A program made the translations under genes and the position numbers. Under the pieces are notes generated by a model, which did not search any database, had not been told where the DNA came from, and worked only from the letters and a program-made list of their open reading frames with translations. Shown here in pieces: positions 11,124-32,124 of a stretch of DNA of 32,124 nucleotides (position 1 is the first letter of the stretch; each line of letters opens with the position of its first letter). The stretch is from an uncultured Merdimonas sp. (GTDB taxonomy: Bacteria > Bacillota > Clostridia > Lachnospirales > Lachnospiraceae): contig CALWGE010000031.1 of the NCBI GenBank assembly GCA_944378225.1, positions 1-32,124 of the forward strand, in the 5' to 3' direction.

Positions 11124-12812
11124 ATGCTGAAAATCGGGACAGTTCTGGAAGGAAAGTACAGGATTTTGGATGTCATAGGAAGAGGCGGTATGAGCATTGT
11201 CTATCTGGCCGTGAATGAAAGAGCGAACAAATTCTGGGCTGTCAAGGAGATTGCGAAGGCAGATTACGGCAGTTTTGCTCCTGACAGAAAAGAACTGGAG
11301 CTCATGAAGGGATTCAGGCACCCGAGTATTCCCGGTATCGCAGACGTAATAGATGACGGTGACAGGCTTCTGATTGTGATGGATTATGTAGAGGGCAGAT
11401 CGCTGGATATCCGACTGGCGGAGCAGGGGGCCCAGTCTGAGGAAAAGGTTCTGGAATGGGCGAAGCAGCTGTGCGCAGCTCTTATTTATCTGCATAACAG
11501 AAATCCGCCTGTTATCTATCGGGATTTAAAGCCTGCCAATGTAATTGTGAAGCCGGATGGAATGGTGTCTCTTATTGATTTTGGAGCAGCCAGGGAATAC
11601 AGGCCTCAGAGGATGAAGGATACGGTTTCACTGGGAACGAGAGGATATGCAGCCCCGGAGCAGTATGAAGAGAACGGACTGAGTGATGTCAGAACAGATA
11701 TCTACTGCCTGGGCGTCATGCTGTTTCAGCTTCTTACCGGGGAAAGCCCGCACAGCCTTCGTCCTATACGGCAATGTAATTCCGCTTTTTCAGCGGGTCT
11801 GGAAGAAATTATCCGAAAATGTACGCAGGTTCGAAAGGAGGAAAGATATCAGTCCTGCGCAGAGCTTCTTTATGCATTGGAGCACTTTCAGGAACAGGAC
11901 AGAAAATACCGGGAAATACAGAAACGGAAAATCAGACAGTATGCGTTCTGTCTGGGCGGAATTCTGTTGTTTCTTGGTCTGTCCGGAATCTTTCTCGCAT
12001 TTGAAACAGGAATACGGAAGAACAGTTATGAGGCCTGTCTGGTTTCTGCCCGAAATTCGGTGAATCAGCAGGAAGAGAAGGAAAACTATGAGAAAGCTCT
12101 GTATCTGGATCCCTTTCGGGAAGAAGCCTGGCTTCTGCTTCTTCAGGAATGTTTTCTGGAAGATCAGAGGCTGACATCCGAAGAAAGTGCGCAGCTTCGG
12201 GAGCTGTTGATTCAGTACACGCAAGACGGGCAGACTCTGGAAACTGTATTTCAGAAAAATAAGGAAGGTTACGCCCGGTTTTCTTATGAGGCGGGACTTG
12301 CCTATTTTTATAAATTTGAGGATACGGGCAGCAAAAAAACTGCCAGAGGGTATTTTGAAACGGCGGCTGCTTCCGGGACGCTGGAGGATCCAAAACGGAA
12401 ACGGGCTGAAAGGCTTGCTTTGATTTCAGGATACTATGCGCAGATAGGACAAATGGATGCTGCCGGGGACAGGTTTGTCAGTTTTCAGGACTACTGGCAG
12501 GATCTTACGGAACTTTCGGCAGGAAATCTGGTGGAAGAGGACAATGAAAGGACTGCTCTGGTTATGTACCAGGAGCTGGTGAATCAGATAATATCCAGGG
12601 CCGCTGAATTTCGGGATGCAGGCGTGGAAGAGAAGGAGATGACAGATACACTTGTGCAGCTGGAATTCCATCTGGAAAATGATTTTCGGGAAACAGGAAA
12701 AGAAATGTGGGAGGAGATTCGGGAAGAAATTCAGGAGCTGCTGGAAGAAATCAGACAGGCACGCCGTGTTGTATCTTCAGCATTCGAAAAGGAGAGAGTA
12801 AAGGATGGATGA
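11124..12812 (+). CDS. Membrane-anchored Hanks-type Ser/Thr protein kinase
   Basis: 562 residues. The cytoplasmic kinase domain (about 10-255) has the glycine loop IGRGGMSIVY, catalytic Lys41 in WAVKEIAK, catalytic Asp134 in YRDLKPAN, Asp152 in IDFGAAR, and the activation-loop end GTRGYAAPEQ. The HRD histidine is replaced by Tyr (YRD), a known bacterial variant. A basic linker precedes one membrane helix at about 273-295. The outer region (296-562) is helical and TPR-like (EEKENYEKALYLDPFREEAW); there are no PASTA repeats, unlike PrkC/PknB. GAAGGGAA precedes the ATG. No phosphatase gene is adjacent. It overlaps the next gene by 8 bases. Confidence 0.92.
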   Translation: MLKIGTVLEGKYRILDVIGRGGMSIVYLAVNERANKFWAVKEIAKADYGSFAPDRKELELMKGFRHPSIPGIADVIDDGDRLLIVMDYVEGRSLDIRLAEQGAQSEEKVLEWAKQLCAALIYLHNRNPPVIYRDLKPANVIVKPDGMVSLIDFGAAREYRPQRMKDTVSLGTRGYAAPEQYEENGLSDVRTDIYCLGVMLFQLLTGESPHSLRPIRQCNSAFSAGLEEIIRKCTQVRKEERYQSCAELLYALEHFQEQDRKYREIQKRKIRQYAFCLGGILLFLGLSGIFLAFETGIRKNSYEACLVSARNSVNQQEEKENYEKALYLDPFREEAWLLLLQECFLEDQRLTSEESAQLRELLIQYTQDGQTLETVFQKNKEGYARFSYEAGLAYFYKFEDTGSKKTARGYFETAAASGTLEDPKRKRAERLALISGYYAQIGQMDAAGDRFVSFQDYWQDLTELSAGNLVEEDNERTALVMYQELVNQIISRAAEFRDAGVEEKEMTDTLVQLEFHLENDFRETGKEMWEEIREEIQELLEEIRQARRVVSSAFEKERVKDG

Positions 12813-13131
12813 GATTTTATCAAGAATCGACATTTATCACAGGTTGTCACAGTTTTGCTTTGGGGGAGCCCTGGTTTTTCTGATAGTTTCTGTGATTCTG
12901 TTTTTCCGTCTGGATATCCGGACTGCAGCAGGATATCTTTCCGGAAGAAAGGCACGGAGAGAGATTAAGAGACTGGAAGAAGAAAAAGCTTTTCAGGAAA
13001 ACAGAGAGGTGCAGTTATCTGTTGAAACAGACTGCGGGGAAGAGGCAACAGAAATTCTTCCCTTGAACAGGGAAACCGGTTATGAGCAGGGCAAAAGGGC
13101 TGGGTATAAGCCGGAAGGGAGAAAAATTTGA
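12805..13131 (+). CDS. Small single-helix membrane protein of the kinase operon, unknown function
   Basis: 108 residues. A short N-terminal segment precedes one hydrophobic helix at about 18-36 (GGALVFLIVSVILFF), followed by a basic coiled-coil-like stretch (GRKARREIKRLEEEK) and a polar tail with EEATEILPLNRET. The positive-inside rule places the tail in the cytoplasm, where the neighbouring kinase domain acts, so its Thr residues could be substrates (inference). It overlaps both neighbours, by 8 and 4 bases, which argues strongly that it is a real gene. I do not recognise a named family. Confidence 0.8.
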   Translation: MDEILSRIDIYHRLSQFCFGGALVFLIVSVILFFRLDIRTAAGYLSGRKARREIKRLEEEKAFQENREVQLSVETDCGEEATEILPLNRETGYEQGKRAGYKPEGRKI

Positions 13132-16100
13132 AAAAAGGAATCCTGTTATGTCTGTTTCTGCTGGCTTTGCCGGCAGATTTGAAGGAAACTACAGAGCTGA
13201 GAAGTTATGCACATCCTGTACAGGAACAGGAAGATACCGGAACAACAGATGAAAAAGAAGAGGGGATTCCAATCAAGGATGAGATCGCCCCTGTAGTGCA
13301 TACAGAATGTCCGGCGGCTGACTGGGAGAAAGAAGGCAGAAAATATTATGGAGGAAATGATGGGGAGACAGAGCAGCTGACCCTTGTTTTTACAGAAGAA
13401 ACTTATACGGAAATAACGGAAAAGCCGGAGTTGACAATTCTGAAAGATGGACAGAGGATGGAACAGGAGACGACAGGGGACTGGATTTACTGGGATCAGG
13501 AGGCAGGCGGCCGGGTTTCTGCCCATGTTATGCTTCCCTATGAAGACGGCAGGGAAATCTGTTATCAGGTGGAGGCTGTCTGGCAGGATGATGCAGGAAA
13601 TCCTCTGACAGCGGCAGAGGGAAGTTTTGGGAAAATAGAGGAAAAAGACAAGGGCGTTTTTGTGACGGGCAATATGATTCTGGACGCCAGATCCCCGGAA
13701 CTTCTGGATTTTGCGGTGGAGGGAAACTGTGTGCAGACGGCAGAGTGGGGAGGGGAAAGGATTCCTCTTTTCAATGACGAGGAAAAGGAAGATATCAGGT
13801 TTACCTTTATTATAGATGACGGAGAAGAGGAATGGAATGGAGAAGAACTGAGACTTCAGATCATCAGTCTGACAGATGGGGATGTGATAACAGAACTCCG
13901 GGGAGACAGTGAAGCTGTTATATGGCGGCATGAAGACAGGAGCCATCAGGCAGAGTTTGTATTTGACGGAGAAGAGGGGACAGAGGATGTGTATCAGCTT
14001 CAGCTCAGCTATTGTGACAGAACGGGTCATGTTTTGCGTGATGGAAGGACAGAAACAGAGGAGGATATGATTTCTGCCGCTGTGCGGGAAGACATCGGAC
14101 TCTGTGTTACAAGTCCTTTTGCGCTTGATCATGCTGCTCCCACCATTCAGATTGACTGGCCGGAAGCTGTCAGGGTTGTAAAAGACGGAAAAGACTGTGA
14201 TTCTGCAGAGGGATATACGGTGGATGATATCTTTTATTATAACAGCGATGTTATGGCAGAAATTGTACTTTGTGACACCTCTGTGTTTGACTCTGCATCT
14301 CAAGAAGGAAAGGAGCTCTCTGTACCCCGGAATTTCTGTCTGTGGATTTTAAAGAAATCGGAAAAAGAAGAAGGAGAGGGGACAGACGGAAGTTTTCAGA
14401 TGAAGGATGTGTCGGGACAGATTCGGTGGAGCCGGACAGGCGATGGGGAATGGAGAGGCGTTTTTCCGGTGTCGGAAGAAGGAACCTACAGACTGCAGGC
14501 TGCTTATCAGGATCCGGCAGGCAATCAGGCAGGTCCGGATGAAAGAGGGGTGATTCCGCTGTATGACGGCAGCGGGGACGGAAGACTGGAAAGTCCTTTA
14601 TTTGTTCTGGACAGGACCGCACCGGCAGTCAGTCTGTCTTATACAGAAGAACCGGTACAGGTGTACAGGGAAAGAAAGTATTTTAATACGGCTGTTAAGC
14701 TTTGTATTGTTGTAAAAGAAAAGAATTTCTGTGTACAGGAATTTAAGAAAACGCTGCAGAAATTTTCTGCTTCAGACAGTACAGGAAAGGACGAAAAGGA
14801 GAATACAGAACTGGTCTTCTTTCTGGATACGATGGAGATGAATGAGATAAGCCCGGATGTGTGGAAAGTGGAACTTCCCCTGAGTACAGACGCAAATTAC
14901 AGCATACCTGTTTTATTTGAGGATTTGGCCGGGAATCAGTCCAGAGCAGATACGGGAACCGCGGTATCTCTTACAGTAGACAGACAGGCGCCTTCTGAAC
15001 TCATGTTTACATATTCGGAAAGTCTGTCGGCGCCATATCTGCCCTCAGGATGGATTTTTGCCCGTGAAAAGCTGGAACTTCGGGCGGCTGTCAGAGATGG
15101 AACATCCGGGATCAGGAAAATTCGTTTTATTATGGAGGACGAGAACGGAGAAGAATTTATCAGGGAACAGAGTTTTGAACCGTGTGACGCACAGACGGCA
15201 GAGCTGTCGCTTCCTTTGGAAAAGGCTGATTTTAAGGGCAGTCTGCGGACAGAAGTATATGACTGGGCAGGGAACTGCCGGACAGAGAGCAGAAACTATG
15301 CAGTAGAAAGTCAGAAACAGCATAAAAATTCCGTAACCGGTCAGATTGTTACTCTGACAGAGCCTTCCCGAACGGTAAACGGTATCAGTTATTATAATAC
15401 AGATATCATGTTCCGGATAGCGGTGGAAGATAATTATTCCGGAATTCGTGAAGTGAGATATTCGGGTGGAAATACATTGTCCGGAGCATACAGTTATGCG
15501 GAGGAGGCAGACAGGAAAGAAAATACAGAGGAGGGGCAGGAGATTGAAAGAGAATTTTCCAAAGAGCTGATCCTGGATGCGGAAGAAAATAATGAAAATA
15601 ATATCCCGGTGCGGGTTTCTTTTACGGATAATGCCGGTTATATGGAGGAGCTTCAGGAGATTTATCACATTGACAGAACAGTGCCGGAAATTTCGGTAAA
15701 GTATGATGTGAATCAGCCTGTGAACGGACATTATTTTCATCAGCCGCGTACAGCCGTTGTTACGATACGCGAAAGAAATTTTGATGAAAAGGATGTAAGA
15801 TTTCATATTACGAATTCAGAAGGGACCATGCCCGAAATCAGCGGATGGAGTTCTACAGGAAGCGGAGATGATACGCTTCATGTGTGTACGGTATCGTTTA
15901 AGGCCGACGGTGACTACAGCTTCACTGTGGAATTTCAGGATCTGGCAGGAAATCAGGCTGCGTATGATCGGACAGATGAATTCACTATAGATCAGACAAG
16001 TCCGGAACTGAATGTTACCTGGGATCCCGCAGAGGGAAAAAATGACATATACTATGCTGAAAGCCGGACGGCAGTAATCGAGGTACTGGAACACAATTTT

Positions 16101-17405
16101 GATGAAGAAAAAATCGATGTGACAGTCAGGAAGCAAAATGGAAATAAAGAAACAGTGGGAGAAAAGGGCAGTGTTCCGGTGTTTCTTTCAGAGTGGAAAC
16201 AGGAGGGAGACCGTCATACGGCCAGATTAACTTTTTCAGAGGACGGGATTTACGCATTGGAGGTGACGGGAGAAGATCTGGCGGGAAACAGGATGAACCA
16301 TTACGAATCAGAACCCTTTGTCATTGACCGGACGCCGCCGGAAATCAGCATTTCTGATCTTGAAAACCGGTCTGCGAACAATAAGGAGGTGAGTCCCCGT
16401 ATCTGCTATACAGATGCAAACTGTGACATGGACAGCGAGGTGATTTCCCTGACGGGATACCGGAACGGGGAGACAGTATGGGAGGGGGAACGGACGAGGA
16501 TTCCGGAAGGAATGGAGCTGAAATTCAATGATTTAGCGTATACACAGGAGATGGATGATATGTATATGCTGAAGGTTTCAGTTCAGGATCTGGCTGGCAA
16601 CAGAAGTACGGCACAGATCAGCTTTTCTGTAAACCGTTTCGGTTCTGTCTATACCTTTGATGAAAGTACAGAAAGACTGGCAGGAGAAAACGGAACGTAT
16701 TTTACAAAAGAAGCGCAGCAGCTGGTTATCAGGGAAACAAATGTGGATTCGCTGGAATTTCAGAAGATTCTCTGCAGTCATGACGGAAGAATTCGGACTC
16801 TGAGAGAGGGGAAGGATTATACAGTAAAAGAAAGCGGAGGGTTCCCCGGGTGGAAACAGTATACTTATACAGTATCCAAAGAAAATTTTGAAAAAGAAGG
16901 AGCTTATGTTCTTACAGTTTATTCAGAAGACCGGGCCGGGAATGCTTCCGATACAGGAGTGAAGGAGAAAAGAATAGAGTTTGCCGTAGACAGAACAGCT
17001 CCCGTTGTTCTGATTTCCGGAGCAGAGCAGGGAGGAAGATACAGGGAACATACCAGAGAGCTGACGCTGGATATCCAGGATAATCTGTGTCTGGAAACGG
17101 TGACAGTGATTCTGAATGGGGAAACAACCGAATACAGTGCACAGGAGATAGAAGACAGGAAAGGGAGGATTACACTCCGGATACAGGGAAAAAATTACTG
17201 GCAGGAACTTTCCGTAACTGCCTGTGATGCGGCTGGAAATGCAGCAGAAGAAATAAAGCTGCGGCTGCTTGTGACTCCAAATCTGCTGGTTCAGCTTGTA
17301 ACAGACAGAACTTTATGCTATAGTATAGCGGCAGGTCTGATGCTTCTGACTGCGGGAATCATAGGAGTTTTGCAGGCCGGTGAAAGATGGAAAAAAGATT
17401 CTTAA
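13128..17405 (+). CDS. Giant cell-surface protein with tandem Ig-like repeats and C-terminal membrane anchor
   Basis: 1425 residues, starting at a TTG that overlaps the preceding stop (TTGA) after GGAAGGGAG at about 13112. A short signal peptide (KKGILLCLFLLALPA) leads into a long acidic ectodomain. Repeat landmarks occur across the chain: strand-edge motifs such as DRTAPAVSLSY, DRTVPEISV, DQTSPELNV, DRTPPEISI and DRTAPVVLI, and about nine D-x-AGN motifs (for example QDLAGNQ, EDRAGNA). They mark a string of beta-sandwich Ig-like domains of roughly 90-110 residues. A single helix at about 1395-1417 and a basic tail (ERWKKDS) anchor it with the repeats outside. There is no LPXTG motif. A role in adhesion or as an envelope ruler or sensor is possible. 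Confidence 0.88.
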   Translation: MKKGILLCLFLLALPADLKETTELRSYAHPVQEQEDTGTTDEKEEGIPIKDEIAPVVHTECPAADWEKEGRKYYGGNDGETEQLTLVFTEETYTEITEKPELTILKDGQRMEQETTGDWIYWDQEAGGRVSAHVMLPYEDGREICYQVEAVWQDDAGNPLTAAEGSFGKIEEKDKGVFVTGNMILDARSPELLDFAVEGNCVQTAEWGGERIPLFNDEEKEDIRFTFIIDDGEEEWNGEELRLQIISLTDGDVITELRGDSEAVIWRHEDRSHQAEFVFDGEEGTEDVYQLQLSYCDRTGHVLRDGRTETEEDMISAAVREDIGLCVTSPFALDHAAPTIQIDWPEAVRVVKDGKDCDSAEGYTVDDIFYYNSDVMAEIVLCDTSVFDSASQEGKELSVPRNFCLWILKKSEKEEGEGTDGSFQMKDVSGQIRWSRTGDGEWRGVFPVSEEGTYRLQAAYQDPAGNQAGPDERGVIPLYDGSGDGRLESPLFVLDRTAPAVSLSYTEEPVQVYRERKYFNTAVKLCIVVKEKNFCVQEFKKTLQKFSASDSTGKDEKENTELVFFLDTMEMNEISPDVWKVELPLSTDANYSIPVLFEDLAGNQSRADTGTAVSLTVDRQAPSELMFTYSESLSAPYLPSGWIFAREKLELRAAVRDGTSGIRKIRFIMEDENGEEFIREQSFEPCDAQTAELSLPLEKADFKGSLRTEVYDWAGNCRTESRNYAVESQKQHKNSVTGQIVTLTEPSRTVNGISYYNTDIMFRIAVEDNYSGIREVRYSGGNTLSGAYSYAEEADRKENTEEGQEIEREFSKELILDAEENNENNIPVRVSFTDNAGYMEELQEIYHIDRTVPEISVKYDVNQPVNGHYFHQPRTAVVTIRERNFDEKDVRFHITNSEGTMPEISGWSSTGSGDDTLHVCTVSFKADGDYSFTVEFQDLAGNQAAYDRTDEFTIDQTSPELNVTWDPAEGKNDIYYAESRTAVIEVLEHNFDEEKIDVTVRKQNGNKETVGEKGSVPVFLSEWKQEGDRHTARLTFSEDGIYALEVTGEDLAGNRMNHYESEPFVIDRTPPEISISDLENRSANNKEVSPRICYTDANCDMDSEVISLTGYRNGETVWEGERTRIPEGMELKFNDLAYTQEMDDMYMLKVSVQDLAGNRSTAQISFSVNRFGSVYTFDESTERLAGENGTYFTKEAQQLVIRETNVDSLEFQKILCSHDGRIRTLREGKDYTVKESGGFPGWKQYTYTVSKENFEKEGAYVLTVYSEDRAGNASDTGVKEKRIEFAVDRTAPVVLISGAEQGGRYREHTRELTLDIQDNLCLETVTVILNGETTEYSAQEIEDRKGRITLRIQGKNYWQELSVTACDAAGNAAEEIKLRLLVTPNLLVQLVTDRTLCYSIAAGLMLLTAGIIGVLQAGERWKKDS

Positions 17406-18998: not shown

Positions 18999-20141
18999 AT
19001 GCAAACGGGAAAGAAGGAAGAAAATATGACAGAGATTACGATTATCTCCGGCTTTCTGGGAGCCGGAAAGACAACTTTGATAAAAAAACTCCTGGAAGAG
19101 GCTTTTCAGGGAGAAAAGATTGTGCTGATTGAAAATGAGTTTGGTGAGATCGGTATTGACGGTGGATTTCTGAAGGATGCGGGTATTCAGGTAAACGAAA
19201 TGAATTCCGGCTGTATCTGCTGCTCTCTTGTGGGAGACTTTGGAACAGCATTGAAGGAAGTTCTGGATACTTATGCGCCGGACAGGATCCTGATTGAGCC
19301 CTCCGGCGTAGGCAAGCTGTCCGATGTGGTGAAGGCTGTGGAAAATGTAGCCGGTTCCATGGATGTTCACATTGACAGCTCCATTGTGGTTGTAGACGGG
19401 AAAAAATGCAAGATGTATATGAAGAACTTTGGCGAGTTTTTCAATAATCAGGTTGAACATGCAGGAACGATTGTACTTAGCCGTACACAGAGCATGACAG
19501 AAGAAAAACTTCAGGAAACAGCAGCTCTGCTGCGTGAGCATAATCCTAAGGCAACCATGATTACAACACCCTGGGATGATTTGAATGGAAAGCAGATTCT
19601 GGATGCCATGCATCATGCAGAACTGGATATGGAGGAGCATCATCACGAGCATCACAGCTGTGAAGAACATGAACACGAGCATGATCACCATCACCACGAG
19701 CACGAACATGAGCACGAGCATGGAGAAGACTGCACCTGCGGCTGTCATGATCACCACCATGAACATGAGCATGAACACGAACATGAGCACGAGCATGGAG
19801 AAGACTGCACCTGTGGCTGCCACGATCATCATCACCATCATGATCATGAAGGACATCACCATGCCGACGAGGTCTTTGTAAGCTGGGGAGTAGAGACACC
19901 GCGGCGTTTCAGTACAGAAGAGCTTCAGCAGAAACTGGAAAAGCTCAGCTCTTCGGAAGAATATGGAATTATTCTGAGAGCCAAAGGAATTCTGCAGAAT
20001 ACAGATGGAAGCTGGATGCAGTTTGATTTTGTGCCGGAAGAGTATGAAGTAAGGGGTGGAAGCCCTGAGTATACAGGACGTCTCTGTGTGATCGGCTCCG
20101 GCCTGAATGAAGATGGTCTGAAGGCGTTGTTTGAGGTTTAA
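18999..20141 (+). CDS. CobW/ZNG1-type G3E GTPase with His-rich metal-binding insert
   Basis: 380 residues from ATG 18999; the ATG at 19026 (MTEITIISGF) is equally plausible because both have purine-rich ribosome sites, and would give 371 residues. The P-loop GFLGAGKTT is close to the N-terminus, followed by ENEFGEIGIDG, the metal-binding motif NSGCICCSL, and IEPSGVGKLSD. Residues about 207-290 are an extreme His/Glu/Asp insert with two CTCGC clusters encoded by tandem 75-bp repeats. A CobW C-terminal domain follows. Such GTPases deliver metal, often zinc, to client enzymes; the insert would store or buffer metal. The metal identity is not visible from sequence. Confidence 0.92.
   Translation: MQTGKKEENMTEITIISGFLGAGKTTLIKKLLEEAFQGEKIVLIENEFGEIGIDGGFLKDAGIQVNEMNSGCICCSLVGDFGTALKEVLDTYAPDRILIEPSGVGKLSDVVKAVENVAGSMDVHIDSSIVVVDGKKCKMYMKNFGEFFNNQVEHAGTIVLSRTQSMTEEKLQETAALLREHNPKATMITTPWDDLNGKQILDAMHHAELDMEEHHHEHHSCEEHEHEHDHHHHEHEHEHEHGEDCTCGCHDHHHEHEHEHEHEHEHGEDCTCGCHDHHHHHDHEGHHHADEVFVSWGVETPRRFSTEELQQKLEKLSSSEEYGIILRAKGILQNTDGSWMQFDFVPEEYEVRGGSPEYTGRLCVIGSGLNEDGLKALFEV
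19701..19850 (+). repeat. Two tandem 75-bp coding repeats (His/Cys-rich)
   Basis: Copies at 19701-19775 and 19776-19850 are identical over their first 38 bases and diverge mainly in the second half. Each encodes 25 residues with several His-Glu pairs, GEDCTCGCHD and a further His run. The difference is in-frame, so copy number can vary without breaking the gene. Confidence 0.9.
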
Positions 20142-28696: not shown

Positions 28697-29521
28697 ATGA
28701 GTGAACGAGAATGCAGCAATACCGGCTGTGATAAGGCGAGCTGTGAGGGATGCCCCAGCAGAGAGAAGAAGCCGGCCAGTTTTCAGGTGGAGGCCAATGA
28801 ATACAGTTGTATCCGCCATGTGATTGGTGTAGTCAGCGGCAAGGGTGGTGTAGGCAAGTCTATGGTGACAGCGTCCATTGCCAATGAACTGGCAGCAAAG
28901 GGGTATCAGGTGGGAATCCTGGACGCAGACATTACCGGTCCTTCTATCCCGCGTATGTATGGAATTCATGGACCGGCCGAGGCCAGTGACATGGGAATTG
29001 AGCCTTGTGTGACAGAAAATGGAATTAAACTGATGTCCATGAATCTGCTTCTTCCGGCAGAAGATACGCCTGTTATCTGGCGTGGACCGATTATCGCCAA
29101 TATTGTAAAGCAGTTCTGGACTGACGTAATGTGGGGAGAATTGGATTATCTGCTGGTAGATATGCCGCCCGGAACCGGTGATGTGCCTCTTACAGTATTC
29201 CAGTCTCTTCCGGTAAATGAGATTGTGGTTGTAACTTCTCCTCAGGATCTGGTTCAGATGATTGTAAAGAAGGCTCTGAGCATGGCGGAACAGATGAAGA
29301 TTCCGGTTAAAGGTGTGGTAGAGAATTATTCCTATCTTCAGTGCCCGGACTGTGGAAAGAAACTGTATCCCTTCGGACAGAGTCATCTGGAAGAAGTTGC
29401 GGAGAAGGAAAACCTGAAAATACTGGGACACATTCCCATGGATCCGGCATATGCCCAGGCTGCGGATGCAGGTGAGTTTGCGAAAGTAAGAAATCCCTGG
29501 ATAGAAGCGGATTTTGAATAA
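28697..29521 (+). CDS. Mrp/NBP35-family P-loop ATPase, Fe-S cluster carrier
   Basis: 274 residues. The N-terminus has four cysteines (C6, C11, C16, C19) spaced as an Fe-S motif. The deviant Walker A GKGGVGKS is at about 48-55, with LDADITGPSIPRMYG and DMPPGTGD as family hallmarks. Cys216 and Cys219 (QCPDCGKKLYPFG) are the conserved CxxC that binds the bridging 4Fe-4S cluster of the dimer. GATGAGGTAAG precedes the ATG. In this genome it could supply clusters to the sulfite reductase and radical-SAM protein (inference). Its gene is monocistronic and is followed by a terminator. Confidence 0.93.
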   Translation: MSERECSNTGCDKASCEGCPSREKKPASFQVEANEYSCIRHVIGVVSGKGGVGKSMVTASIANELAAKGYQVGILDADITGPSIPRMYGIHGPAEASDMGIEPCVTENGIKLMSMNLLLPAEDTPVIWRGPIIANIVKQFWTDVMWGELDYLLVDMPPGTGDVPLTVFQSLPVNEIVVVTSPQDLVQMIVKKALSMAEQMKIPVKGVVENYSYLQCPDCGKKLYPFGQSHLEEVAEKENLKILGHIPMDPAYAQAADAGEFAKVRNPWIEADFE

Positions 29522-29527
29522 GAAAGA

Positions 29528-29584
29528 AAAACAGAGGTTATGCCCAGTCATAGAATGACTTGAGGGATCTCCTCTGTTTTGTTT
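29528..29584 (+). terminator. Terminator of the mrp-like gene
   Basis: Outer stem 29528-29537 with 29571-29580 (AAAACAGAGG) encloses an inner hairpin AGTCAT-AGA-ATGACT (29546-29560). A T-rich tail (TTTTGTTTT) follows. It starts a few bases after the stop codon. Confidence 0.85.
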
Positions 29585-29647
29585 TATTACGGACATTTCT
29601 TTTTGAAAGCGTTTCCGGATGAATGGAGTGAACGGAAAATTTATGTC

Positions 29648-29676
29648 TTGCGCTCCCCGAGAAAGTGTGCTAAAAT
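29648..29676 (+). promoter_or_regulatory. Promoter of the radical-SAM/DUF4130 pair
   Basis: TTGCGC (29648-29653) and TAAAAT (29671-29676) are spaced 17 bases, with an extended -10 TGC at 29668-29670. Transcription would begin near 29683, inside the LexA box. Confidence 0.75.
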
Positions 29677-29681
29677 TAAAT

Positions 29682-29695
29682 CGAACAAATGTTCG
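29682..29695. promoter_or_regulatory. Consensus LexA/DinR SOS box
   Basis: CGAACAAATGTTCG is an exact match to the Firmicute LexA box CGAAC-N4-GTTCG, and its flanks T and A extend the palindrome to 16 bases (29681-29696). It covers the predicted transcription start, so LexA would block initiation. It is the only such box I found in the window. Confidence 0.88.
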
Positions 29696-29729
29696 AATAA
29701 ATCGGCATAGAAAGGGGAGGTGAAGTATT

Positions 29730-31076
29730 ATGCTGCGTACAAGAATTCCGGAACAGCTTCCGGTGATGGAGAAGCTGAAGATTCTGTCGGATGCAGCCAA
29801 ATACGATGTAGCCTGCACTTCCAGCGGCACTTCACGGGGAAATAACGGAAAAGGGATAGGAAACTGTACGGATGCCGGTATTTGTCACAGCTTTGCCGCT
29901 GACGGAAGATGTATTTCTCTTTTGAAAATTCTTTTTACCAATGAATGCATATTTAACTGTCGATACTGTCTGAATCGATCTTCCAATGATATCCCGCGTG
30001 CGACTTTTACTCCGGATGAAATATGCAGCCTGGTGATGGGGTTTTACCGCAGAAATTATATAGAGGGGCTGTTTCTGAGCTCCGGAATTCTGAATACCCC
30101 GGATTATACGATGGAACTTATGTATCAGACTCTTTATAAACTGAGAACACAGTATCATTTCGGGGGCTATGTTCATGTCAAGGCAATTCCCGGAGCGGAT
30201 CCGGTTCTGATAGAAAAAACAGGGTATCTGGCTGACAGAATGAGCGTAAATCTTGAACTGCCTACAGCAGAGGGGCTTCGCAGGCTGGCTCCGGCCAAAA
30301 CCAGAGAGAAGATTCTCATGCCTATGCGCCAGGTGCAGAATCGGATGGAAGAGAATCGGGAAGAATTGATTCTTTATCGGAATGCTCCCAGATTTGTTCC
30401 GGCAGGGCAGTCTACGCAGATGATTATTGGTGCTACACCGGACAGCGATTTTCAGATTTTGTCGGTGGCGGAATCTCTGTATAAAAAATTTGAGCTGAAG
30501 AGAGTGTTTTATTCTGCTTTTGTAAATGTGAATGAAGACAGTGAACTTCCTGCGCTGCCGGGAGGGCCGCCTCTTCTGAGAGAGCACAGGCTGTATCAGG
30601 CGGACTGGCTGCTGCGTTTTTACGGGTTCTCGGCAGAAGAACTCCTTTCAGAAGACAGGCCTAATTTTAACATGATTTTTGACCCGAAATGTGACTGGGC
30701 TCTGCGTCATCTGGAATATTTTCCAGTGGAGATTAACAGTGCTCCTTACGAGATGATATTGCGTGTGCCTGGGATTGGGGTAAAATCAGCCCGGAGGATA
30801 ATAAAGGCGAGGCGCCAGGGCAGTCTGGATTTTACGGATTTGAAAAAAATGGGAGTTGTGCTGAAGCGGGCTCTTTATTTTATTACCTGCAGAGGCAGAA
30901 GTATGTATCCGATTCGGATAGAAGAAGATTACATTGCAAGAAACCTGCTGTACACAAAGGAAAACCTGCCCCCTCAGCTGCAGAGCGGAGCGACTTACAG
31001 ACAACTTTCACTTTTTGATGACGGGATGCTCCTGTCTGCAGGGGAACAGCCACAGGCGTTTCCGGTGGATGTCTGA
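29730..31076 (+). CDS. Putative DNA modification/repair radical-SAM protein (TIGR03916-like)
   Basis: 448 residues. The radical-SAM cluster motif CxxxCxxC is C73, C77, C80 in FTNECIFNCRYCLNR, which binds the 4Fe-4S cluster and SAM. The C-terminal part has a helix-hairpin-helix DNA-binding element around residues 340-370 (ILRVPGIGVKSARRIIKARR). The first 60 residues (KYDVACTSSGTSRGN, CTDAGICHSFAADGRC) are family-typical. It resembles the family annotated as putative DNA modification/repair protein, always paired with the DUF4130 protein that follows. The ATG lies after GGGGAGGTGAAG. The chemistry is not established. Confidence 0.9.
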   Translation: MLRTRIPEQLPVMEKLKILSDAAKYDVACTSSGTSRGNNGKGIGNCTDAGICHSFAADGRCISLLKILFTNECIFNCRYCLNRSSNDIPRATFTPDEICSLVMGFYRRNYIEGLFLSSGILNTPDYTMELMYQTLYKLRTQYHFGGYVHVKAIPGADPVLIEKTGYLADRMSVNLELPTAEGLRRLAPAKTREKILMPMRQVQNRMEENREELILYRNAPRFVPAGQSTQMIIGATPDSDFQILSVAESLYKKFELKRVFYSAFVNVNEDSELPALPGGPPLLREHRLYQADWLLRFYGFSAEELLSEDRPNFNMIFDPKCDWALRHLEYFPVEINSAPYEMILRVPGIGVKSARRIIKARRQGSLDFTDLKKMGVVLKRALYFITCRGRSMYPIRIEEDYIARNLLYTKENLPPQLQSGATYRQLSLFDDGMLLSAGEQPQAFPVDV

Positions 31077-31126
31077 CAGGTTGTTTCTGGAGCGCCGGTA
31101 ATAGAATGAGCCGGAAGGAGATTTTT

Positions 31127-31894
31127 ATGACAACTGTATTTTTATGCGAAGACAGTCTGGACGGAATTCTCACGGGCGTATATGATGCGTGGGACAGTCG
31201 TCTGGGACATGAATGCGTAAAGCTTCAGCTGCAGATTGATGGGAATATAGAACTGTTCTGTGAATACAGAACTGTCTGTACGGATCTGCAAAAGGCGGAG
31301 AAAGTGCTGCGCACGGTCCGGAAACGAATGGGCAGAAATGCGGAAGAGGCTGTATGTTACGCAGCGGCATGTACAGATGACAGAAAAGCAGATGCAATTT
31401 ACAGGCTGATCGTATTGGGACTCACCATGCCGGATGGGAAAAAGGCAGTGCACTGTCTTCAGAATACATCGGTCCTGCTTGTGGAGAAACTGCGCTGTAA
31501 GTCCTGGCGCGAAGCAGAGAAAATGCTGGGGTTTTTGCGGTTTGAAGAACTGGAAAACGGAGTTCTGTATGCCTGTATGAAGCCTTTGTGCGCAGTTCTT
31601 CCTCTGATTGCACCGCATTTTGCAGAGCGGTTTATGCAGGAGAACTGGATTATTCATGATGTCGGGCGGAGACAGGCTGCTGTTCACCGGATGGGCGGAG
31701 GATGGTATCTCACTGACTCATATCTTCTGGAAAAAGTGAATCAAAAAGGACGTTCCGGCTCAGAGGAGGAATTTCAGGATTTATGGAAAATATTCTGCAG
31801 ATATATTTCCATAGAAGAAAGAAAAAATCCGGGATGCCAGCAGAACCTGCTTCCACTTCGTTTCCGGCCGTATATGACGGAATTTATGGACTGA
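31127..31894 (+). CDS. DUF4130/TIGR03915-family DNA metabolism protein
   Basis: 255 residues from ATG 31127 (MTTVFLCEDSLDGILTGVYD), which has AAGGAG just before it; an ATG 7 codons upstream is less well placed. Typical features are the N-terminal FLCEDSLDGIL, KALHC-like HCLQNTSVLL, the region PHFAERFMQENWIIHDVGRRQAAVHR, and the terminal ISIEERKNPGCQQNLLPLRF. The C-terminal uracil-DNA-glycosylase domain that some homologues carry is absent. It starts 50 bases after the radical-SAM gene and shares its SOS-controlled transcript. It is thought to cooperate with the radical-SAM protein in DNA repair, but no activity is established. Confidence 0.85.
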   Translation: MTTVFLCEDSLDGILTGVYDAWDSRLGHECVKLQLQIDGNIELFCEYRTVCTDLQKAEKVLRTVRKRMGRNAEEAVCYAAACTDDRKADAIYRLIVLGLTMPDGKKAVHCLQNTSVLLVEKLRCKSWREAEKMLGFLRFEELENGVLYACMKPLCAVLPLIAPHFAERFMQENWIIHDVGRRQAAVHRMGGGWYLTDSYLLEKVNQKGRSGSEEEFQDLWKIFCRYISIEERKNPGCQQNLLPLRFRPYMTEFMD

Positions 31895-31907
31895 TTCCCG
31901 TCTTTAT

Positions 31908-31936
31908 TTGACAGTATTAAGAAATCATAGTACACT
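31908..31936 (+). promoter_or_regulatory. Promoter of the homoserine dehydrogenase gene
   Basis: TTGACA (31908-31913) and TACACT (31931-31936) are spaced 17 bases. The leader would be about 85 bases; I see no T-box or riboswitch structure in it. Confidence 0.7.
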
Positions 31937-32027
31937 GAAAATAAGGTGCGGACGGAGAAATGTATCCACATGCTTTGTGTTCTGCAGAGAAGAGACAAAA
32001 AGAAAAAGGCAGACAGGAGAGACGAAA

Positions 32028-32124
32028 ATGAGTGAAATTCCGGTGATAAAGGCTGCGCTGTTGGGCGCAGGAACAGTAGGGAGCGGAGTCTTGCAGATTC
32101 TGGAATGGCAGAATGAAGAAATGC
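32028..32124 (+). CDS. hom: Homoserine dehydrogenase, N-terminal part (cut by window end)
   Basis: Only the first 32 codons are present. The sequence KAALLGAGTVGSGVLQIL is the NAD(P)-binding Rossmann start typical of homoserine dehydrogenase, which makes homoserine for threonine and methionine. AGGAGA at about 32015 precedes the ATG. The call rests on this one motif region. Confidence 0.75.
   Translation, partial: MSEIPVIKAALLGAGTVGSGVLQILEWQNEEM

Follow-up and report, generated by a model that had tools for sequence, protein, structure and literature searches.

Conservation of a predicted LexA operator upstream of a paired radical SAM and DUF4130 operon in an uncultured Merdimonas sp. and its relatives

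The subject of this analysis is a two-gene operon of an uncultured Merdimonas sp. (Lachnospiraceae), found in a 32,124-nucleotide (nt) stretch of DNA, here called the window, which is contig C31 of a genome assembly of 2.85 Mb in 138 contigs. The operon encodes a radical S-adenosylmethionine (SAM) protein of the TIGR03916 family and a DUF4130 protein (TIGR03915), and a predicted LexA operator, CGAACAAATGTTCG, lies over its predicted transcription start. Based on the position of this operator and its conservation in relatives, the pair is very likely under SOS (LexA) control. We consider it probable that the two genes form an inducible, LexA-repressed two-protein system which would use radical chemistry to process a DNA lesion that blocks replication, with DUF4130 as the obligate partner. 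The gene pair, the operator, their conservation, the pairing and the motifs are read from the sequences themselves.

The operator was searched for between −250 and +40 of the radical SAM gene, with 29 palindromes of permuted half-sites and gene interiors as controls. The same-family sample comprised 150 genomes of 150 genera, and one locus was taken from each of the 87 genomes above the family cut-off, the window included. In the phylum set 91 genomes were above the cut-off and 89 loci were taken (our own genome was already present and G294 was left out). The counts are those of a recount without L101, whose contig ends within the gene, and without L146. The preliminary description of this DNA had proposed a search of sequenced genomes for LexA boxes upstream of the pair, and had held that their absence from close relatives would speak against LexA control. 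A site with at most two mismatches is present in 85/86 same-family loci (permuted palindromes: mean 6.5, maximum 19; gene interiors: 3), and one with at most one mismatch in 59/86 (mean 0.17, maximum 2; gene interiors: 0); within the genus, 14 of the 15 other members keep a site at two mismatches, so that the close relatives do not speak against LexA control. The sole same-family miss (L080) has a two-mismatch site at −291, just beyond the scanned region. Outside the family, 61 of the 88 further phylum loci have a site with at most two mismatches (permuted palindromes: maximum 14), rising to 81/88 at three mismatches. Among the named loci (the best 80 of 593 matches, which may overlap the sampled genomes) a two-mismatch site is found in 65. 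Two or more LexA-type sites are carried by 69 of the 86 same-family loci, and one perfect site by the window; in the 65 loci with exactly two sites, these are spaced 19–38 nt apart in 31 and 46–61 nt apart in 30. One genus member, L312, keeps both genes and has no upstream site at two mismatches.

The preliminary description of a perfect LexA box over the predicted start of a two-gene operon held up in full. The two genes are on the same strand with 29 nt between them, the spacer from TTGCGC to the −10 element is 17 nt, and transcription is predicted to start at about 29683, inside the operator (Table 1). The promoter at 29648–29676 was not listed by a consensus scanner, being under its thresholds (3/6 and 5/6 matches); however, 13 of 16 genus loci (the window and 15 others) have the form TTGnnn-17-TAnnnT with a preceding TGn at most 20 nt 5′ of the box, and this conservation, together with the sequence reading, supports the position of the box over the transcription start. 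The exact pattern CGAACN4GTTCG occurs once in our own genome, as the window box, vs three exact matches of the backwards pattern; at one mismatch or fewer there are 18 sites vs 47 for the backwards pattern, and the window has seven matches at up to two mismatches vs a chance mean of 9.3, so these are not above chance. Since the counts are at chance level or below, they are uninformative alone, and it is position and conservation that are informative. A weak box at 29736 (three mismatches, 54 nt further on, in the start of the coding region) was seen and no claim is made for it. Rfam gave no RNA-element match across 29400–32124, and the scanner placed a shorter hairpin with a T tail at 29562–29574, inside the terminator-like hairpin of Table 1.

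Table 1 Predicted features of the operon and its upstream region in the window
Feature	Position	Strand	Basis
Terminator-like hairpin, AACAGAGG ... CCTCTGTT, then T-rich	29530..29588	+	Sequence reading; separates the pair from the upstream Mrp gene
−35-like hexamer TTGCGC	29648..29653	+	Sequence reading; TTGnnn and 17-nt spacer in 13/16 genus loci
Extended −10, TGCTAAAAT	29668..29676	+	Sequence reading and genus comparison
Predicted LexA operator, CGAACAAATGTTCG	29682..29695	.	0 mismatches to CGAACN4GTTCG; over predicted transcription start
Ribosome-binding site, AAGGGGAGGT	29712..29721	+	Sequence reading
Radical SAM protein, TIGR03916 / rSAM_link_UDG, 448 amino acids (aa)	29730..31076	+	694.7 bits vs cut-off 343.5
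Codons of three more invariant cysteines (C29, C52, C61), N-terminal of the SAM-cluster motif	29814..29912	+	62/62 aligned sequences
CX3CX2C radical SAM motif (C73, C77, C80)	29946..29969	+	62/62 aligned sequences
Helix-hairpin-helix (HhH) region, aa 333–373	30726..30848	+	PF12836 25.5 bits; PDB profile match to ComEA-type and RuvA HhH
DUF4130 partner, TIGR03915	31106..31894	+	223.4 bits vs cut-off 112.25; PF13566 151.2 vs 27

Our own genome encodes a full-length LexA (240.9 bits in a profile search), and a one-mismatch box begins 48 nt before the start of recA (L008; recA was recognised by eye). Together with the box over the predicted start and its conservation in relatives, these findings bear out the LexA/SOS control proposed in the preliminary description. 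Also, two one-mismatch LexA-type boxes (L006 and L007, G000:C12:7500-7548) precede a small LysM gene about 3.4 kb before lexA; by eye, this gene resembles the division inhibitor YneA. Among the sites in the genome with at most one mismatch, those before recA and before the LysM gene are the informative ones.

The operator sequence appears to differ by lineage but to persist. In plasmid loci of α- and β-proteobacteria, hand-picked for taxon spread, an exact GAACN7GAAC, which we take to be the α-proteobacterial LexA repeat, is found in 11/11 α-proteobacterial loci, 16–36 nt ahead of the projected start; Bacillota boxes in these loci are poor, the best being a two-mismatch site in 1/11. The single β-proteobacterial locus has CTGTATAAACATACAG at −20, presumably a LexA box. 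Concerning the 15 named loci which lack a two-mismatch site, five (L257, L258, L263, L270 and L278) lack one even at three mismatches. The LexA profile was run on six of these 15, namely the five and L246, as part of a comparison of 13 genomes chosen after the boxes had been seen. The genomes of the five (G547–G551, near Faecalibacterium, Gemmiger and Ruthenibacterium) retain the radical SAM gene without a full-length LexA: the profile matches only within positions 75–201, the best matches spanning 79–198 with 66–115 bits, and that of G551 (115.3 bits) is above the LexA cut-off though it covers positions 79–198 only. All eight other genomes searched have a full-length LexA of at least 234.7 bits, and L246 combines a three-mismatch site with a full LexA. 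At least three of the five LexA-poor genomes are metagenome-assembled, so that the LexA gap there may be an assembly gap. Because no box is found at three mismatches in the five genomes without full LexA, the operator seems to follow its regulator, its presence tracking that of full-length LexA.

The two genes also go together. TIGR03916 is matched in 91 of the 150 same-family genomes, and above the cut-offs the radical SAM and DUF4130 proteins occur in identical sets of 87 genomes, neither without the other. By tblastn, the partner is on the same strand at 157/176 loci; of the remaining 19, three are at a contig edge, nine have a partner that a profile search detects, two (L182 and L183) have a downstream frame like that of L181, and five have none adjacent, with a DUF4130 gene elsewhere in 5/5 of those genomes. 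As far as tested, the pair thus appears to be obligate. The preliminary description presented it as an anaerobic system needing no oxygen, and the pair is indeed common in the family of the window (87/150 genomes). However, it is also present in Phaeobacter, Paracoccus, Azospirillum and Methylobacterium, which are aerobic α-proteobacteria, there with a different LexA-type repeat, and a search with the radical SAM family also matches Caulobacter. As a general statement the anaerobic label therefore fails, and it is barely credible that this is a repair system confined to anaerobes.

Four genomes, all from the family f60 (L280, L281, L282 and L283), have the DUF4130 gene directly 3′ of a QueC gene; their radical SAM gene is isolated at another place and lacks a LexA box at two mismatches. 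A role in DNA modification instead of repair, in which the pair would make or remove a modified base, for example of the 7-deazaguanine type, and would be induced by damage for protection, draws on this arrangement (the QueC profile was run on three of the four). It seems improbable, since the QueC search matches just those four and one distant case (L195) of 269 loci, and since SOS control across phyla better fits repair.

Concerning the radical SAM protein, TIGR03916 is the only NCBIfam match at E up to 0.001 and covers the full length, while the Pfam radical SAM match is sub-threshold (26.6 of 29.5 bits). The gene identities given in the preliminary description (a radical SAM motif with HhH, and DUF4130) agree with the TIGR03916 and TIGR03915 matches, the HhH match being sub-threshold. 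The closest named relatives, among the best 80 of 593, are from Lachnospiraceae, and in a tree of 68 chosen rows the protein falls within its family's clade. The three invariant cysteines before CX3CX2C make a second iron-sulphur cluster probable. The best fold matches of the structure model are lipoyl synthase and HydE, which suggests a similar barrel; by sequence, solved structures are matched only in HhH or SAM-motif pieces. Identity to lipoyl synthase (LipA/LIAS) and HydE is 13–18%, and the auxiliary motif of lipoyl synthase is CX4CX5C, whereas the window protein has the spacing C-x22-C-x8-C and a C-terminal HhH, and no LipA family match in NCBIfam.

Direct reversal of a photoproduct or a similar pyrimidine lesion, as by spore photoproduct lyase (SplB), with DUF4130 as lesion finder, would be a narrower form of the lesion-processing reading; the radical SAM motif and the HhH region are consistent with it. 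We regard it as unlikely. NCBIfam includes a SplB model, yet the window protein, searched at E up to 0.001, has no match to the SplB family and belongs to a different one; to our knowledge, SplB has neither a partner protein nor the three extra invariant cysteines. The best fold matches point to lipoyl synthase and HydE, and the operon persists in gut anaerobes, presumably with little ultraviolet exposure. SplB is absent among the 50 structure matches listed for the radical SAM model, which excludes nothing. SplB is likewise a radical SAM DNA-repair enzyme, described as SOS regulated in several species in a passage of PMC8565304.

The partner protein of the window matches TIGR03915 and DUF4130 only and contains no uracil-DNA glycosylase (UDG) domain; its translation may in fact start at an internal ATG (31127), which has an AAGGAG of its own. 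Four of its residues are invariant (R145, R175, R239 and N241). The predicted fold resembles RecJ, Cdc45 and PAP phosphatase (DHH superfamily). The DHH motif of those proteins is not seen in DUF4130, the second Asp position of a motif-I-like loop being Ser or Thr in 50/65; there is no profile similarity and the fold likeness comes from the model only. A search for sequence matches among solved structures gave none for DUF4130. The strict pairing and the four invariant residues would also suit a maturase and its target, in which the radical SAM protein modifies DUF4130 and the modified protein is the active agent; with the HhH region on the radical SAM protein and none found on its partner, this arrangement is quite improbable.

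Profiles of three α-proteobacterial loci show a partner in which DUF4130 is joined to a UDG domain named UdgX by NCBIfam, and by tblastn the other eight α-proteobacterial partners and the β-proteobacterial one resemble the same fusion. The fused partners keep the UdgX motifs, unlike the window partner with no UDG domain: GEQPG is found in 11/12 and R-x-H in 12/12, three of the latter by a looser pattern without the surrounding motif. The nine rows with a UdgX fusion group together as a single clade in the 68-row tree (support 100/100). UdgX is a cross-linking uracil-DNA glycosylase, of a type that removes uracil and then binds the abasic site covalently. According to PMC10359453, from which the motifs were taken, the histidine closing the R-x-H loop is bonded covalently to the abasic sugar, and the physiological role of UdgX is largely unknown.

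We infer from these features LexA binding, induction, a DNA substrate, radical chemistry and the roles of the subunits, as follows. DNA damage would lead to RecA-activated cleavage of LexA, which would free the operator over the transcription start so that both proteins are made. The radical SAM enzyme, with its HhH DNA-binding region and probable second cluster, would then most likely generate a 5′-deoxyadenosyl radical on DNA, by which a lesion that blocks replication is converted or opened. DUF4130, its obligate partner with a predicted RecJ/Cdc45-type fold without the DHH motif, would most likely bind and present the DNA. The proteobacterial UdgX fusion points to lesions of the uracil or abasic type, or to ones similarly processed. 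Tentatively, the pair may represent an unrecognised class of inducible repair, in aerobes and anaerobes alike, in which a LipA/HydE-like radical SAM protein with a second cluster would form an obligate complex with an inactive RecJ/Cdc45-like protein, the latter threading or holding damaged DNA, and would carry out radical conversion of a blocking lesion, with UdgX as a covalent tether to abasic sites in proteobacteria; such a system would be neither a photolyase nor a glycosylase nor a nuclease.

Several observations weigh against LexA-controlled lesion processing by an obligate pair. Sub-cut-off matches occur singly, for the radical SAM protein in four genomes (G025, G072, G074 and G142) and for DUF4130 in two (G073 and G136). 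Outside the family 27/88 phylum loci have no site at two mismatches, and although 20 of those 27 have a three-mismatch site, so do 44/89 gene interiors. One Bacteroidota locus (L195) and one Gemmatimonadota locus (L325) have none of the tested boxes near the start, and our own lexA has no site at two mismatches in the 1.4 kb upstream (L132). The HhH match is just below the Pfam cut-off of 27 bits, and C52 lies in a loop with a predicted confidence score (pLDDT) below 50 in the structure model, from which the second cluster is uncheckable. When DUF4130 was compared by hhalign with a 20-row RecJ alignment, the score was no better than with the reversed alignment; the likeness is thus one of structure, and RecJ homology by sequence was rejected. 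Finally, UdgX is above the cut-off in 0/41 genomes of the window's relatives (our own included, where a single UDG-type match scores 135 bits, below the cut-off), so that in this lineage the core function cannot be capture of the UdgX type; the best interpretation is a lineage-specific addition of UdgX to a core made up of radical SAM and DUF4130 proteins.

The pair is of a known kind and its regulation has already been predicted in print. We assume that CAC3344 of Clostridium acetobutylicum is the DUF4130 partner, and take COG4277 to be the TIGR03916-type radical SAM family. On this basis CAC3343–CAC3344 (TIGR03916 and TIGR03915) belongs to the same two families as the window pair, with no functional difference seen; its LexA control was predicted in 2013 (a passage of PMC3828012). 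Part of PMC8565304 describes a COG1573–COG4277 operon as a putative base excision repair operon, predicted to be LexA-controlled in Bacteroidetes, and cites reports from Verrucomicrobia and Alphaproteobacteria. In that operon a uracil-DNA glycosylase protein takes the place of the partner, whereas the window partner lacks a domain of this kind and the three profiled α-proteobacterial loci have DUF4130 with UdgX, unlike that description. Given these predictions in C. acetobutylicum and in other phyla, the LexA control proposed in the preliminary description is not new. Its statement that the pair is known as a family but its chemistry is not established agrees with our literature search, the scope of which lay outside most subscription papers and bioRxiv: it found no biochemistry of the pair, which may be in print beyond that scope, nothing for TIGR03916, and for DUF4130 solely PMC3765255, a passage of which calls it a predicted mutagenesis-related enzyme. 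The main text of a C. difficile LexA paper (PMC4234289) contains neither ‘radical’ nor ‘glycosylase’, and the Streptomyces LexA regulon, in a passage of PMC9380542, includes an unnamed radical SAM protein.

The three extra invariant cysteines, the LipA/HydE-like barrel, the RecJ-like predicted fold and the UdgX fusion with its cross-linking histidine motif are offered as new leads. If the pair does repair DNA by radical chemistry, it would be, like spore photoproduct lyase, a case of DNA repair by a radical SAM enzyme, and the fusion would give UdgX a partner and a pathway. The pair is consistently SOS-linked, with a LexA-type site matching the lineage, and as a small operon with one predicted start and one perfect operator it is directly testable.

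Other candidates were also considered and rejected. A functional tie to Mrp, the iron-sulphur carrier encoded upstream, was dropped, as its gene adjoins the pair in only 2/80 named loci. A mobile-element or phage origin was rejected on a viral-contig scan (close relatives only), which gave none, and on the position of the protein inside its family's clade. For anti-phage defence, PADLOC gave 0 families for both proteins. A phage collection has 10 records, eight of ‘Bacteriophage sp.’ from human faecal samples and two of Acinetobacter phage. Residues 9–108 of the DUF4130 protein have a match in a phage family of unknown function, phrog_6306 (E 4.5e-17); some phages therefore encode a protein related to the N-terminal part of DUF4130.

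Elsewhere in the window, a CobW-type GTPase gene (18999–20141) overlaps a two-copy 75-bp tandem repeat (19701–19850), and a 1425-aa protein of bacterial Ig-like domains is encoded at 13128–17405, near a protein kinase gene at 11124–12812.

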